This document shows, one piece after another, positions 27,199 to 38,002 of a stretch of DNA of 55,572 nt. The notes below the pieces were generated by a model. It saw only the letters and a list, made by a program, of their open reading frames with translations, made no database searches and had not been told where the DNA came from. Positions within the stretch are counted from its first letter, which is position 1. Every line of letters begins with the position of its first letter. Origin of the DNA: Fimbriimonadaceae bacterium (lineage in GTDB: Bacteria; Armatimonadota; UBA10988); NCBI GenBank assembly GCA_020850355.1, contig JADZEX010000027.1, forward strand, positions 1 to 55,572, read 5' to 3'. The position numbers and the translations under genes are program-made.

Positions 27199-31743
<4,545 letters not shown>

Positions 31744-31787
31744 CTATCGTCTGCCGGCGAGGGCACGCCGAAAGGGACGGTGGGGCG

Positions 31788-33485
31788 ATGAGCGAGTTGT
31801 TGCGACCGTTTCGGGTGCTGGTGATCAGCGACGGGTGGGACGAAACGGTGGCGGGGGTGCTGGCCGACGAGGGCGAACTGGGTGCCCTGCTGACGGTCCT
31901 CACCGCCGGGCACATTCCTTTCGACCTGCTCCGGCTGGACGCCAACAGCTTGGAGCTGGAATCCTTCCTACAGCGCGGCGCGGCCGCCTACGGCGCGGTG
32001 GTCTGGCTGTCGGCGAGTGGCGACGAGGGCACCCTGAACACGCTCCGCGCCGCCGTCAACGAGCTGCACGTGCCGCTCCTGCTGCTGGGCGACCGGGTCG
32101 AGCACGCCGTACTGGCGGCGCTCGCCGGGCTCCGGCTGCGCGGCGCCTTCGACCGCCGTCCGCTCTATGTGCGCGGTGGCGAGCACTTCATCACCCGTGG
32201 CCTGGACCTGGCCACGCTGCCGCGGCCGGTGACCCTGCCGCGGGTGCGCCACCCGGTCGTCGCCACGCGCGGCGCCGAGGTGCTCCTGACCTGCGACGGG
32301 CACCCCGCGTTGACCGTCCACGAGGTCGCCGGCTGCGGGGTCGCTTGGCTCGGCCACGGCGTCGGCGGGCGGCGCCGCGCGCTGACCGACCATCCCGGCT
32401 GGGCGCGACTCTGTCTGCGGGCGCTGACCTGGCTGATCGGCTACCACTTCGGCCCCCACGACGAGCAGGCCGAGTTGCTGGTGATGGACGGCCTGGGCAA
32501 CCCCGCGGCCTGCTTCGCGCCGACTGGCGAGTACACCATCCCCGACTTCGCGCGGTTCGAGCGCTCCGTGGTGCATCCGCTGCAGCAGCACAACGCCAAG
32601 CTGGTCTGCCACGTCCTGAGCGCTTTCCCGCACGCCGAGAGCCGGACCCTGCGCCGGGCCTGGGACCTCACGTTTGTCGACGGGTTCGGCAACATGCAGG
32701 ACCTCAAGTCGCTGCATGAGGGCCTGCAGAGCGGGCAGACGGCTGGAGTCCTGGACCTGCAGTCGGGCGGCTACGCGCGGCTGCTGCCCGCTGCGTCCGG
32801 CTGGTGGGCAGCGGCCCCCGACGAAGGGCGCAGCAACGTCGCCTGGTACCGCGAGTTCTACGACGAGGAGCGCGGGCAGCCGGTGCCGGCGCCGCGGCAG
32901 GCCGAACGACTGCGGCTGGCGGTGAGCTGTCACGAAGAGGACTTCGGCCTGACGCCGCTGGCGCTCAGCGTCGGCGACGCCCCGATCGGGCTGACCGCCG
33001 CCGCGCACACGCCCGCCCTGGCCGCCAGCGCCGGGTTTGCGCTGCTCGGTGACGACTGGGTGCTCGACGCCCGGCGCGTGCTGCAGCTGCACCACGCGCC
33101 GTTGCCGGTGCATCACTTCACCGACCGCGACATCGCTCTCGACCCCGACCACCTGAAGCGATACCTGGCGGCCGTGCCGCCGGGGCGGCGGTTCCTCACC
33201 AAGCGCGACTGGATTGCCGCGCACCGCACCCGGCTCAGCAGCAACCGCGCCCGCACCGGGCTCTGGGTGCGCTGGGACCAGGTCGGCTGCGAGCCGTTCC
33301 GGACGCGGCCCAGCGAGTGGGCATTGACACTCAGCGACGAGCAACGGCACAAGCTGACCCACGGCGCTTACGCCTTCCTGTCGGTCAACGGCGAGACCGT
33401 CAACTTCAACAACCGCACCGAGCGGCAGGTGCTCACCCTGCCGGCCGGCATGGGTGCCTACCTGGAGTTCGTGAAGACGGTCTAA
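31788..33485 (+). CDS. conserved-looking protein of unknown family (565 aa)
   Basis: I do not recognise this protein. The N-terminal 210 residues (FRVLVISDGWDETVAGVLADEG ... YGAVVWLSASGDEGTLNTLRAAVNE ... VPLLLLGDRVEHAVLAALAG) look like an alpha/beta flavodoxin or glutamine-amidotransferase-like fold. No Cys-His-Glu triad is evident. A middle part (LLVMDGLGNPAACF, AKLVCHVLSAFPHAESRTLRRAWDLTFVDGFG, RLRLAVSCHEEDFG, PLPVHHFTDRDI) has scattered His, Asp and Glu residues that could form a metal or catalytic site of a deacetylase-like barrel. The C-terminal 100 residues end in a beta-rich stretch (AYAFLSVNGETVNFNNRTERQVLTLPAG). No signal peptide. It stands first in the plus-strand carbohydrate run, 54 nt before the lyase-like gene, so a role in sugar metabolism is a guess from context. 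Confidence 0.75.
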   Translation: MSELLRPFRVLVISDGWDETVAGVLADEGELGALLTVLTAGHIPFDLLRLDANSLELESFLQRGAAAYGAVVWLSASGDEGTLNTLRAAVNELHVPLLLLGDRVEHAVLAALAGLRLRGAFDRRPLYVRGGEHFITRGLDLATLPRPVTLPRVRHPVVATRGAEVLLTCDGHPALTVHEVAGCGVAWLGHGVGGRRRALTDHPGWARLCLRALTWLIGYHFGPHDEQAELLVMDGLGNPAACFAPTGEYTIPDFARFERSVVHPLQQHNAKLVCHVLSAFPHAESRTLRRAWDLTFVDGFGNMQDLKSLHEGLQSGQTAGVLDLQSGGYARLLPAASGWWAAAPDEGRSNVAWYREFYDEERGQPVPAPRQAERLRLAVSCHEEDFGLTPLALSVGDAPIGLTAAAHTPALAASAGFALLGDDWVLDARRVLQLHHAPLPVHHFTDRDIALDPDHLKRYLAAVPPGRRFLTKRDWIAAHRTRLSSNRARTGLWVRWDQVGCEPFRTRPSEWALTLSDEQRHKLTHGAYAFLSVNGETVNFNNRTERQVLTLPAGMGAYLEFVKTV

Positions 33486-33538
33486 GACTGGCAGGACGAC
33501 CCGCTCGCAGCGGCGAACAGCGCGCCGCGGGAGTGCTC

Positions 33539-36500
33539 ATGGTCTGCCTGCTGCTCGGTTCACTGACCGCCCTGGCACCGCCAGCGCCGGGCCCGCTGGC
33601 CTTTCGCGTGGTCGCCGACCAACAGCCGGGGCCGCGGCTGGTGAGTCTCAGCCTGCCACTGGGCCCCGGTGAAGCGACCAGCGCCGCTGGGGCCAGCGTC
33701 AGGCTCGGCACGACCACCAGCACGGCGCAGGTCCGCGCGCTGAATCGTCATCCCGACGGCTCGCTGCGACGGGTGCTGCTACGGCTGCCCTGGGAGGCCG
33801 GCGCCGGGGCCAGCGCCGAGGGCAGCGTCAGCTTCACCGCCACCGCGCCAAGCGGCCCGCCGATCGCCACCGACGACGGGCGCGGGATCGTCTTGCAGGC
33901 AGCCGGGCGGACCATCCGCAGCACCGCGCGCGGGGCGCGGATCGAGACCGCGGGCGGCTCGCCGGTCGAGCTGGAGCTGTTGGCGCCGCTGTTTCCGCAG
34001 CGCCACGTCGGGCCGGCCGTCCACCTGATCGAGAACGGGCCGCACTTCGCCTGGGTCGAGCTGGTCTGGTACAGCAACCCCTGGCAGGTCCGCGCCGAGC
34101 TCACGCTCGACCGCTACGGCGCCCTCAGCATCACCGCGCGGGTGCGCCTGTTGAGCGGCGGACAGGCCGATCCGCCGGCCTTCGGCCTGCGCCTGACGGG
34201 TCTCGCCCTGCCGACCGGCCCGGCCGTACCGAGCGCCGGGACCGTCACCGCCGGGCCGCGCGAGTGGACCTGTGGGCCGCAGCGGCTGCTGTTGCCCGAC
34301 GGCCCGCAGATTCGGCAGGGCCGCTGGGCCTGGGCCGCCGCCGCCGCCGGCGCGGCCTGGACCCTGACCCGCGACGCCAGCCTCGACAGCACCGTCGACG
34401 CCGCGGCGCTGCGGTTCTACGAGGGGCAGGAGCGCGCCGTCAGCGTGTTGCTGCCGCCACCGGGGCAGGCCCCACGCACCTGCCGCGTCGACGTCGCGTC
34501 GCGCCGTCGCTGCGCCGCCGTGCTCGGCCAGCCGCTGGTCGACTGGGGCCCGCTGACAGCGCTGCGCGCGACGCTCAACGCCGACGCCGCCAAGCTCTCC
34601 TGCCGCGACGGCGACCAGTTCGGCGATTTCACCAGCGCCGTCGACCCGGTCGCCCCGCGGTGGTCGCTGCAGGGGCTGACCCGCATCGACACCGGGGCCG
34701 ACCTGCTGCGCGACTACTACCGCGGCGGCGACGCCGTGCTGCGCGACCGGCTGGTTGAATGGGCCGAGAACTGGGTCAGCCTGAAGCAGTACCGCGGCGG
34801 CGACCTCAACAGCTACGGCGGGGAGCGGTACACCGTCGCCGCCTGGCAGAGCATCCCGTCATTCAATCAGAAGGGTATCGCGCTGGTCGCCTACGCCTAC
34901 GAGGAGACCGGCGACCCGCGCTACCTCGACAGCGTCCGCGCCTGGGGCAGCCGGCTGCTACGCCAAACCAGCAGCCGCGGCTTCGTCTCGACCTCGGTGG
35001 TCAGCCCGGCGACGATGCACTACGACATCAACGTCCGCCCGGCGTTCCTGGCCCGTGACCTGGTCTTCCTGGCGCGCTGGACCGGCGACGGCGCCTACCT
35101 GGACGCCGCGCGGACCGTGATCCGGGCGATGGACAGCCTCGACCCGGCCGCCGACGGGCTGCTGCGTGAGGGCTACGGCGACCCCTTCTCGCCGTTCTAT
35201 CGGCTGGTCACCGGGACCGACCTGGGGATCACCCAAGACAACAGCGACCACCACAAGCCGTTCATCCTGCAGTACTGCCTGGACGGCGCGCAGGCGCTCT
35301 TCGAAGCGACCGGCGACCCGGTCGCCGAGCGCTGGCTGCGGCGGCTCAGCGACTTTCAGTTGGCAGCCCGGCAGCCGGGCGGGATCTGGAACTACGCCCA
35401 ACGCCACGCCGGGGTCGGCAACAGCATCGGCCACATGACCGTCGAGATGTCCAACGGGCTGCTGCGCTCGGCCGAACTGACCGGCGACGCCCGTTACCGC
35501 GACGCCGCGCTCGACTCGTTGCACCTCGTGACCGCCCTGCTGCAACGCTATGGCCGGCTGCTGGACGGCGTCCACCCGCCGCTTGACCGCGCCTGGTTCT
35601 ACCCCGACGACCGCTGCGAGCTGGACTTCTACCGTGGCCGGGTCAGCCTCGCCATCGTCGGGCGCGACCTTTACGCCTACCTGCTCGACGCCCTCGACCG
35701 CGCGCTGCGGGTCGATCCGCAAGCGGCCAGCAAACTGACCGCCCCGGTCACCGATCCGCGGCAACAGTGGTTGGTGGATCAGGTCCCCCTGGCCGGCAGC
35801 GGCACCGACCACGAGTTCGGCCACTGCTGGATCGCCAAGCTGGTCTTTCCGTTCGACGGTGACAGCGAGAGCGGCGGCAAGTCCGACCTGGTGCTGCTGG
35901 AAGACGGCCGGGTGCTCGGCCCGCCGCATAGCCTGCACGCCGCGATTCGCGAGCAGGGCGGCGGGCGCTACAGCCACTGGACCCGCGGCACGCTCTACTT
36001 CAGCGCCAGCGACAACAGCGACCCGACCGCCAACGGTCGCGGGTATGCCTGGTTCCGCGGCAAGCCCGAGCAGGTGCCGCCCCGGGCCAGGTGGTCTGTC
36101 CTGCCGCTGGCCGGACCGTACCCCGGCCGCCGCCCGCACCCCTGCGTGGCGCTCTACGAGAAGGGCCTCGCCGCCGAACGGGAGCAGCGCTGGCTCGACG
36201 CCGTGGCGGTCTGGGACGAAGTCCTGAGACGCTGGCCGGCAACCGCGCCCGAGCTGTACCGCCAGATCGAACTGTACCGCGCCGCCGGCGACCTGCCCGG
36301 CGCCGTGGCGGTCTGCCAGCGCTTCGTGACGACCTTCCCGCAGCACCAGCGCGCCGCCGAGGTGCGCCTGCGCCAGGCCGCCCTGCTGCTGACCCTGAAT
36401 CGCCGCGACGAGGCCCGCGAAGCCTACGACGCGACGGTCCAAGCCCACGCCGGCAGTCCCTGGGCCGAGGAGGCCCTGGCCCGCCGGTGGGCCGAGTTGG

Positions 36501-37039
36501 GGCTTGGCTCGGCCCCGCCGCTGAGCGTGGTCGCCGCCCGCGACGCCGCGCCGGCGGTCACCTGGCCGGTCCTCGAAGCGGCCACCGGCGAACCCAGCCC
36601 CGCGCCGCTGCGCCTCGCCGCGCAGCACGACGGGACGACCCTCACCCTCACCGCGACCCTCGGCGGCGGCGCGCTGCCCGCTGGCGGCTACGAGGGTCTC
36701 TACCTCTACCTCGACCCCCGCGGCCAGCTCACGGACTACCTCACCTTCGGCCTCGGCAGCGACGGCACCGCGGTCGACCGGCCGCTCCTCTGGCACCTCC
36801 GCTCGACACCGCCACAGAAGGCCAGCGGCTGGACCGCCACCGCCACCCCGTCGGCCGACGGCTGGACCGCCACCTTCGCGATCCCCTTCGCCCGCCTCGG
36901 CTACACCCCCGCGGCCGGCCAGCAGACCCTCCGCCTGGCCCTCCGCTGGGACAGCCGCAGCGGCCCCCGCCTGCCCCGCCCCACCAACCCCGAAGTCCCC
37001 CGCCCCATCGACGGCGGCTGGCTGGTGGTCCGGCCGTAG
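33539..37039 (+). CDS. exo-rhamnogalacturonan-lyase (PcRGLX/YetA)-like protein with TPR and CBM9-like C-terminus
   Basis: A 1166-residue, probably secreted protein (MVCLLLGSLTALAPPAPGP as weak signal). The N-terminal domain (GPRLVSLSLPLGPGEA ... ALNRHPDGSLRRVLLRLPW) resembles the first domain of PcRGLX/YetA-type lyases. A long alpha-helical barrel-like region follows (about 340-800; RDGDQFGDFTSAVDPVAPRW, NSYGGERYTVAAWQS, DNSDHHKPFILQYCLDGAQ). About 875-985 are tetratricopeptide-like helices (ALYEKGLAAEREQRWLDAVAVWDEVL, AGDLPGAVAVCQRFVTTFP). The last 175 residues look like a CBM9-type sugar-binding domain (YEGLYLYLDPRGQLTDYLTFGLG ... WTATFAIPFARLGY). Start ATG 33539 has GGGAG upstream; GTG 33533 is possible. 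The substrate is unknown but likely an acidic polysaccharide. The catalytic assignment is inference from overall resemblance. Confidence 0.72.
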   Translation: MVCLLLGSLTALAPPAPGPLAFRVVADQQPGPRLVSLSLPLGPGEATSAAGASVRLGTTTSTAQVRALNRHPDGSLRRVLLRLPWEAGAGASAEGSVSFTATAPSGPPIATDDGRGIVLQAAGRTIRSTARGARIETAGGSPVELELLAPLFPQRHVGPAVHLIENGPHFAWVELVWYSNPWQVRAELTLDRYGALSITARVRLLSGGQADPPAFGLRLTGLALPTGPAVPSAGTVTAGPREWTCGPQRLLLPDGPQIRQGRWAWAAAAAGAAWTLTRDASLDSTVDAAALRFYEGQERAVSVLLPPPGQAPRTCRVDVASRRRCAAVLGQPLVDWGPLTALRATLNADAAKLSCRDGDQFGDFTSAVDPVAPRWSLQGLTRIDTGADLLRDYYRGGDAVLRDRLVEWAENWVSLKQYRGGDLNSYGGERYTVAAWQSIPSFNQKGIALVAYAYEETGDPRYLDSVRAWGSRLLRQTSSRGFVSTSVVSPATMHYDINVRPAFLARDLVFLARWTGDGAYLDAARTVIRAMDSLDPAADGLLREGYGDPFSPFYRLVTGTDLGITQDNSDHHKPFILQYCLDGAQALFEATGDPVAERWLRRLSDFQLAARQPGGIWNYAQRHAGVGNSIGHMTVEMSNGLLRSAELTGDARYRDAALDSLHLVTALLQRYGRLLDGVHPPLDRAWFYPDDRCELDFYRGRVSLAIVGRDLYAYLLDALDRALRVDPQAASKLTAPVTDPRQQWLVDQVPLAGSGTDHEFGHCWIAKLVFPFDGDSESGGKSDLVLLEDGRVLGPPHSLHAAIREQGGGRYSHWTRGTLYFSASDNSDPTANGRGYAWFRGKPEQVPPRARWSVLPLAGPYPGRRPHPCVALYEKGLAAEREQRWLDAVAVWDEVLRRWPATAPELYRQIELYRAAGDLPGAVAVCQRFVTTFPQHQRAAEVRLRQAALLLTLNRRDEAREAYDATVQAHAGSPWAEEALARRWAELGLGSAPPLSVVAARDAAPAVTWPVLEAATGEPSPAPLRLAAQHDGTTLTLTATLGGGALPAGGYEGLYLYLDPRGQLTDYLTFGLGSDGTAVDRPLLWHLRSTPPQKASGWTATATPSADGWTATFAIPFARLGYTPAAGQQTLRLALRWDSRSGPRLPRPTNPEVPRPIDGGWLVVRP

Positions 37040-37065
37040 GGGCTGACGGCCGCCAGCGGGCCCAA

Positions 37066-37124
37066 CTCCCGCAGAGGCGCGGAGGCGCGGCGGACCCAAT
37101 AGCACAAATGGCTCTGCGTGAGAT
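37066..37124 (+). repeat. partial copy A of the GCAGAGGC hairpin repeat
   Basis: A shorter, diverged member of the repeat family found at 37144, 37705 and 37813. The left arm GCAGAGGCGCGGAGGCGCGG and right end GGCTCTGCGTGAGA remain, while the inner part of the right arm is missing. It begins 26 nt after the stop of the lyase-like gene. Confidence 0.7.
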
Positions 37125-37143
37125 AGATTCGGGGGACGGGAGA

Positions 37144-37220
37144 GGTTCACGCAGAGGCGCAGAGGCGCAGAGAACTCGATGGTAGGATTGGCTCTGCGAC
37201 TCTGCGGCTCTGCGTGAGTC
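37144..37220 (+). repeat. 77-nt hairpin repeat copy B
   Basis: A 29-nt left arm (GGTTCACGCAGAGGCGCAGA onward, built of 8-nt GCAGAGGC steps), an 18-nt variable centre and a 30-nt right arm ending CTCTGCGTGAGTC, nearly complementary to the left. It lies 11 nt from the stop of the GxxExxY gene. Copies C and D have exactly the same 29-18-30 layout. Confidence 0.9.
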
Positions 37221-37231
37221 AGGCTGAGCGG

Positions 37232-37618
37232 TCACTGGTTGAGGTTGTTGACGATGCGGTGGATGCCGTCCTTCATGAGCGGAGCGCCGAAGTTGAGGAG
37301 CAGGCCGAGGCGGCAGTCGAGCAGGCGCAGGTAGGTCAGCAGTTGCTTGGAGTGGACCGGCGCCAGCTTCTCGACGGACTTGAGCTCGACGACGACCAGG
37401 CCCTCGACCAGCAGATCGACCCGGAAGCCTTCGTCGAAGTGCAGGCCGTCGTAGTCGATGGGCACTGCCTTCTGGCGCTCGACATCCAGCCCGCGCCGGG
37501 CCAGGTCGCGCGCCAGGACCGCCTCGTAGACCGACTCCAGCAGGCCGGGGCCGAGGCCAGTGTGGAGCCGGTAGGCCGCATCGACAATCGTCCCGGAGAT
37601 CTGGTTGTGGTCTGCCAT
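37232..37618 (-). CDS. GxxExxY family protein (PD-(D/E)XK-like fold)
   Basis: A 128-residue protein of the GxxExxY family, with the naming motif in GLGPGLLESVYEAVLARDL. The likely nuclease-fold core is FRVDLLVEGLVVVELKSVEKLAPVHSKQLLTYLRL, with Asp, Glu and Lys placed as in PD-(D/E)XK enzymes. The end is GAPLMKDGIHRIVN, typical of the family. The biological role is unknown. AGGAG stands 6 nt before ATG 37618. It lies against the direction of its neighbours and is enclosed by 77-nt hairpin repeats (B at its 3' end, C and D at its 5' end), so gene and repeats look like an inserted cassette within the carbohydrate locus. Confidence 0.92.
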   Translation of the reverse strand: MADHNQISGTIVDAAYRLHTGLGPGLLESVYEAVLARDLARRGLDVERQKAVPIDYDGLHFDEGFRVDLLVEGLVVVELKSVEKLAPVHSKQLLTYLRLLDCRLGLLLNFGAPLMKDGIHRIVNNLNQ

Positions 37619-37704
37619 CGCGGGCTCCTGCGCCAACCTGCCCCTTGAGACACCGGGAGTTGGCGGATGTTGCGCTGATGAGTCGGGCCGCGAAGGCGTG
37701 GCTT

Positions 37705-37781
37705 GGTTCACGCAGAGGCGCAGAGGCGCAGAGGGGGCAATAGTCTGGATAGCTCTGCGGCATAGCGGCTCTGCGTGAGTC
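37705..37781 (+). repeat. 77-nt hairpin repeat copy C
   Basis: Same 29-18-30 nt layout and length as copies B and D. The left 29 nt are identical in all three. The 18-nt centre (GGGGCAATAGTCTGGATA) is close to that of D and unlike that of B. It starts 108 bp before D and 87 bp from the GxxExxY start codon. Confidence 0.9.
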
Positions 37782-37812
37782 TGACCGGGAACCTCCGGGG
37801 GTATCCGGGTCT

Positions 37813-37889
37813 GGTTCACGCAGAGGCGCAGAGGCGCAGAGGGGGAAGTAGTTTGGATAGCTCTGCGGCTTGGCGGCTCTGCGTGAGTC
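37813..37889 (+). repeat. 77-nt hairpin repeat copy D
   Basis: The left arm is identical to copies B and C, the centre is GGGGAAGTAGTTTGGATA and the right arm ends CTCTGCGTGAGTC. C and D are separated by 31 nt. Beyond D, about 110 nt without recognisable features lead to the heparinase start at 38003. Confidence 0.9.
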
Positions 37890-38002
37890 TGGCCAACAAC
37901 CTGATGCGAGCATGGCGTCCTGGCGCAACCGCGGCGCGGCCGGTTCAGGGTTTGCGGCAGGCCGACCGGGCGCGAGGGCGAAAGGCGGGGCTGGAGCTGG
38001 CG

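Follow-up and report, generated by a model that had tools for sequence, protein, structure and literature searches.

A probable non-secreted pseudo-deacetylase of three-domain NodB type in a carbohydrate locus of a Fimbriimonadaceae bacterium

The window analysed here, a 55,572-nucleotide stretch of contig JADZEX010000027.1 from a Fimbriimonadaceae bacterium (Armatimonadota), encodes a 565-residue protein, P0001, which we read, at a probability of roughly 0.6, as a non-secreted pseudo-deacetylase of a three-domain family that binds glycan without catalysis. The parts of this reading differ in strength. We are highly confident that P0001 is a homologue of three-domain NodB-type proteins and consider it very probable that it lacks metal-dependent deacetylase activity, while the proposal that it works mainly as a non-catalytic glycan binder, made by analogy, is slightly favoured. 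An unlabelled protein thereby becomes a testable pseudoenzyme. The analysis also outlines a bacterial group of three-domain deacetylases with six close members, most of them below the Pfam cut-off. Some are encoded next to a gene for an exo-glucosaminidase or a heparan-type glucosamine acetyltransferase, and as relatives of Agd3 and PelADA they are accessible to assay.

Reading frame and direct searches

The ORF described in the initial annotation proved sound, beginning with an ATG, extending over 565 codons and carrying a coding signal (GC at codon positions 1, 2 and 3 of 0.746, 0.489 and 0.920; Table 1). It is overlapped by a 464-aa antisense ORF and by a 502-aa ORF in another frame; however, a codon score trained on three other genes of the window came to +0.311 per codon in the P0001 frame and to no more than +0.041 in any of the five alternatives. 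Because the score favours its frame, we regard P0001 as a real gene despite these long ORFs, and a chance ORF was rejected, P0001 having the best coding score of the six frames. A start farther upstream was likewise rejected on account of the absence of an in-frame alternative. The short distance to the next gene (given as 54 nt) also held, with 53 bases following the P0001 stop before the next start at 33539. The 'convincing promoter' at 31661–31689 was not supported: TTGCAG-17-TACGAT matches the consensus at 3/6 and 4/6 positions, and a scan for sigma-70-like sites across 31000–38000 found none (0.2 expected).

Table 1. Coordinates of P0001, its predicted domains and motifs, and neighbouring features in the window
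Feature	Position	Strand	Description
P0001, 565 aa	31788..33485	+	Probable three-domain pseudo-deacetylase; ORF, coding signal, full-length homologues
In-frame codons (23) from previous stop to ATG	31719..31787	+	No other ATG/GTG/TTG; no leader peptide
P0001 residues 1–222	31788..32453	+	Predicted alpha/beta/alpha domain, class I glutamine amidotransferase/ThuA-like, in CBM87/CBM114-like position
P0001 residues 223–480	32454..33227	+	Predicted NodB-type deacetylase domain, degenerate
P0001 residues 481–565	33228..33485	+	Predicted beta-rich C-terminal domain; strands in low-confidence model
Motif 1, residues 233–235	32484..32492	+	Met-Asp-Gly
Motif 2, residues 327–331	32766..32780	+	Gly-Gly-Tyr-Ala-Arg, replacing His-x-x-x-His
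Motif 5 region, residues 442–447	33111..33128	+	His442-His-Phe-Thr-Asp446-Arg447; His-Asp-Arg in homologues
P0002, next gene, 1166 aa	33539..37039	+	TPR region; weak match to GH127 catalytic model
P0002 residues ~749–844	35783..36070		Recurrent stretch of about 90 residues
DUF2334/polysaccharide deacetylase, 298 aa	41369..42265	+	8 kb downstream of P0001
GH2 beta-galactosidase	27661..31671	-	Start probably nearer 31272 than 31671, from the coding signal

Taken alone, P0001 is not recognised by direct searches. Its best matches in Pfam (E 0.06) and NCBIfam (E 0.01) fall far below cut-off, the full-length protein matched no PDB sequence at E≤10, and its pieces searched separately returned nothing better than the whole protein and nothing credible. 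An hhalign comparison of P0001 alone with four NodB proteins, one encoded in the window and three at other places in its genome, gave nothing. The initial description of a protein of no recognised family is therefore fair as regards database labels, but it lapsed once diverged homologues were added.

Relatives were also sought in genome collections. Protein searches revealed no relative in 61 related genomes and no credible relative in 291 genomes of the phylum, whether with P0001 or with residues 227–480; the matches that reached E values of 3.6e-4 and 3.5e-4 in these searches sit in or across other genes. Six of the weak matches were inspected (L002, L081, L082, L083, L099 and L104). None of them falls within a convincing gene on the strand that was matched, and three are antisense to recognisable genes (two of them GroEL-like, named by eye). 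No relative was found in the plasmids or viral contigs searched, nor in the GTDB species collection using exact 8-residue peptides of P0001. Among 14 stretches carrying relatives of the downstream gene P0002, seven were ORF-listed and seven proteins translated, with no counterpart of P0001 seen by eye. The DUF2194 model returned eight weak, sub-cut-off matches in 151 genomes, none in the window's genome; the five loci viewed of the nine from this search showed nothing resembling P0001, and DUF2194 (PF09960) did not match P0001 or its homologues at E≤1.

Diverged homologues and domain architecture

The idea of a NodB domain first came from reading the sequence by eye, where the motifs appear worn, and served as a lead. 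A relaxed query, consisting of five made-up variants of residues 300–565 in which only the guessed motif residues were fixed, matched 58 stretches in GTDB species genomes, three of which encode relatives according to tblastn against the real P0001 (E values relative to the candidate stretches): L114 (Acidobacteriota, 30% identity, E 3e-26), L115 (Alphaproteobacteria, 28%, E 7e-23) and L116 (Acidobacteriota, 28%, E 2e-20). All three align with P0001 over its full length, and so also over the first 299 residues, which lay outside the query; the homology is hence independent of the motif guess. A four-protein profile was then matched in 12 of 297 genomes of L116's phylum, scoring at most four candidates per genome; the 12 comprised L116's own genome, those of the full-length L121, L122 and L123, and eight with ten partial matches between them. 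With the same limit of four, this profile recovered nothing but P0001 itself from the 291 genomes searched in the window's phylum; with a limit of seven, it recovered L115 alone from 161 genomes of that protein's class. Rare diverged copies may have escaped under these limits. Identity to P0001 is 29–32% for all six full-length homologues (L114, L115, L116, L121, L122 and L123). Counts over 11 homologues refer to these six together with the partial matches L124, L126, L127, L129 and L133, with L125, L128, L130, L131 and L132 left out of the alignment.

The homologues supply the family signal. Among the seven members (P0001 and the six homologues), four match Pfam Polysacc_deac_1 (PF01522) at E≤1 and the others do not; L122 exceeds the cut-off (29.7 bits, cut-off 23.1). 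At E≤1, all five aligned partial matches hit both DUF2334 (PF10096; best E 1.4e-6) and PF01522 (best E 1.4e-5). The seven-protein profile aligned by hhalign with the profile of these five DUF2334/Polysacc_deac_1-matching proteins at 99.9% probability (E 1.2e-33, 495 columns, all domains). Against the four NodB proteins used above, the seven-protein profile reached 63% at best. On the strength of the homologues' Pfam matches and the profile–profile alignment, P0001 is, on sequence grounds, placed in the NodB world at the superfamily level, inside a group mostly missed by Pfam. A clear match to a characterised family, which the annotation had set against its proposal of novelty, is accordingly reached through the homologues at the level of fold and architecture, and not by P0001 directly.

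We infer that an amidotransferase-like alpha/beta domain is followed by a NodB deacetylase domain and then by a beta-rich end, an order that agrees with the alpha/beta start, His/Asp/Glu-containing middle and beta-rich end sketched previously. Overall, P0001 keeps 74 of 128 homologue-invariant columns (six columns gapped), the columns invariant in the six homologues being kept at 30/48, 39/67 and 5/7 in domains 1, 2 and 3, respectively. In the first domain, the six homologues share ten invariant aromatic columns, of which P0001 keeps seven unchanged and has Phe for Tyr in one more. By eye, neither P0001 nor its homologues carry the class I amidotransferase Cys at the expected elbow (Leu-Gly-Asp-Arg-Val). 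AlphaFold2 models of P0001 reached a pLDDT of 34.1 with one sequence as input and 42.7 with four, too low for folds to be assigned from the model. The best Foldseek matches of the first domain in this low-confidence model were the ThuA-like 1t0b (E 3e-3) and a CTP synthase glutaminase (E 5e-3); NodB structures were absent among the 50 matches listed, the middle of the model being poor.

Metal site, gene neighbourhood and possible roles

The second Asp of motif 1, a metal ligand, and both His residues of motif 2 are present in 11/11 homologues, and P0001 has Gly235, Gly327 and Arg331 in their place; an active enzyme is disfavoured because of these three replacements. The annotation had proposed to look for invariant His/Asp/Glu in homologues from other Armatimonadota; as none was detected in the 291 genomes searched there, the comparison was made with homologues from other phyla. 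Motif 1 of the homologues reads Met-Asp-Asp, or an Arg/Val-type residue followed by Asp-Asp, in ten cases and His-Asp in one. The exception is L122 (Met-His-Asp), in which the base Asp is replaced and the metal ligands are retained. The would-be base Asp234 of P0001 is retained, as are Pro390, Asp446 and Arg447, and Trp247 and His248, common to the six closer homologues, are lost. The counterpart of the catalytic-acid His depends on the alignment, being His442 in the seven-row and Thr445 in the twelve-row version. P0001 keeps 15 of the 22 columns identical in all 11 homologues, having lost the metal triad, a Pro (gap), Asp282, the residue at 445 and Tyr478; with these 15 columns and Asp234 kept, it may still support some chemistry. 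A sequencing error behind the lost motifs was rejected by judgement, as three separate codons are affected and the frame is intact. Of the earlier suggestion of a new carbohydrate-active enzyme, the link to the carbohydrate world stands, the homologues being NodB deacetylases, but the active enzyme is disfavoured by the lost ligands.

P0001 also lacks the hydrophobic leader present in the six closer homologues; its highest 12-residue hydropathy near the N-terminus is 1.53, inside the first domain, compared with 2.35–2.79 in those six. Its branch is long (2.78 changes per column vs. a median of 0.27) and its composition unusual.

Near P0001 lie genes for a sulfatase with an SGSH C-terminal match, a GH2 beta-galactosidase, a heparinase II/III-like protein and an intact-looking DUF2334 deacetylase. 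The last of these retains Asp-Asp and His-x-x-x-His, and the beta-galactosidase has a Laminin_G_3 insertion that separates its barrel from domain 4. The domains of P0002 were scanned on 33317–37039. A stretch in P0002 (residues ~749–844) recurs at 41–59% identity in many proteins of the phylum; this recurrence is apart from the N-terminal part of P0002, and no Pfam domain was reported there.

The homologues keep different company. L115 and L116 adjoin GH2 genes with an exo-beta-D-glucosaminidase Ig domain (93.5 and 97.5 bits, respectively). Downstream of L114 and L121 comes an acetyltransferase gene of HGSNAT type (28.3 and 29.4 bits, respectively; cut-off 22), and downstream of L123 a gene for a DUF5009 protein (22.7 bits, below the cut-off of 25), a family akin to HGSNAT. 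The glucosaminidase and HGSNAT-type neighbours point to amino-sugar polymers as the substrates of the active relatives; no large gene adjoins L122 on its contig. These neighbour genes are not conserved at the P0001 locus. HGSNAT-like (two) or DUF5009 (one) genes follow a homologue at L114 6853–7965, L135 6010–7122 and L123 2485–3675, and deacetylase-like and acetyltransferase-like genes thus stand side by side in Acidobacteriota-type genomes.

In the reading that we prefer, P0001 would be unable to hold the catalytic zinc and would therefore carry out no deacetylation. It would stay in the cytoplasm, where the cleft across its first two domains may, as a best guess by analogy with CBM87 and CBM114, still bind a sugar chain. 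The ligand would probably be an amino-sugar-containing oligo- or polysaccharide, and P0001 would serve the carbohydrate locus around it by binding or scaffolding. A more elaborate version, which we think very doubtful, is that P0001 left the cell surface, losing its leader peptide and metal site, and then became a cytoplasmic glycan sensor or scaffold in control of how the products of the neighbouring sulfatase, beta-galactosidase and heparinase-like genes degrade a sulfated amino-sugar polymer.

The absent leader and dead site would also suit an intracellular regulator or sensor of the neighbouring carbohydrate genes that senses a breakdown product, and the position of P0001 beside P0002, with the sulfatase, beta-galactosidase and heparinase-like genes near, is consistent with such a role; however, no DNA-binding or signalling domain appeared in any family search (Pfam and NCBIfam, whole protein and pieces), and we consider a regulator unlikely. 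Quite unlikely, in our view, is a re-purposed, metal-independent enzyme whose new chemistry would draw on Asp234, Arg331 and His442/Asp446. Metal-free catalysis by a NodB fold has a precedent in the allantoinase PuuE, and Asp234, Pro390, Asp446 and Arg447 are retained; yet the nearby conserved Trp247 and His248 are gone as well, and the genome searches turned up no other protein whose site is changed in this way, so that a new conserved active site is not recognisable.

Finally, P0001 could be what is left of a transferred deacetylase gene, functionless today and in decay. It has no detected second copy in the 291 phylum genomes (up to four candidates scored in each), sits on a long branch and has lost both catalytic residues and leader. 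A relic is nevertheless very unlikely given an uninterrupted 565-codon frame with genome-typical codon use, the retention of all three domains and the 74/128 invariant columns kept. Counting against the non-secreted, glycan-binding pseudo-deacetylase itself is the fact that P0001 is a single sequence with a long branch and unusual composition.

Comparison with known systems

Agd3 of Aspergillus fumigatus (CE18, CBM87) has an amidotransferase-like first domain that lacks the catalytic triad and has a ThuA-like structural neighbour (PMC7229062). The three-domain order predicted for P0001 is the same, with outer domains of 222 and 85 residues compared with 224 and ~74 in Agd3, and its predicted first domain is likewise amidotransferase-like, with a ThuA-like protein as a near structural neighbour (PMC7229062). 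Within the limits of a low-confidence model, the order fits the Agd3-type succession of alpha/beta/alpha, NodB and beta-sandwich domains. The gap between motifs 1 and 2 is long in both, at 92–95 residues here and >120 in Agd3, whereas in CE4 enzymes it is about half that of Agd3 or less (PMC7229062). The metal triad sets the two apart: it is present in Agd3, where the metal is assigned to D378 (the second Asp of motif 1) and to H510 and H514 (motif 2), and lost in P0001 (PMC7229062). The Agd3 models in Pfam did not match P0001 or the six homologues at E≤1, and a search with the Agd3 model PF25115 was silent in 151 genomes and in its own controls alike and is hence uninformative.

PelADA of Bacillus cereus (CE26, CBM114, PDB 9ZAU) shows the domain order predicted for P0001, and its N-terminal carbohydrate-binding domain (27–253) is similar in length to the predicted first domain of P0001 (PMC13254593). 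Its base-to-acid spacing is 226 residues, compared with 227 in homologue L114, and an Asp comes just after the acid His, as in the homologues' His-Asp-Arg (PMC13254593). PelADA is catalytically active, uses Zn and has a transmembrane helix, with D263 and HxxxH as metal ligands, whereas P0001 has neither ligands nor leader (PMC13254593). The top PDB match of a 12-member profile was to PelADA, at a non-significant E value of 0.52 and in the first domain only. Glycan binding by CBM87 and CBM114 domains has been measured (PMC7229062, PMC13254593).

Among NodB pseudoenzymes, Ba0150 (4M1B) and EcCDA (2VYO) are judged inert or probably inactive, and 2VYO, like P0001, is without both His residues of motif 2 (PMC10967932). 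P0001 differs from both in its predicted three-domain layout and its separate homologous group. Among the papers listed for NodB pseudoenzymes, Armatimonadota polysaccharide deacetylases and PelA/CE21, nothing concerned P0001, which is no proof of absence. Both NodB pseudoenzymes and the three-domain architecture are already in print, and P0001 is a variant on them.
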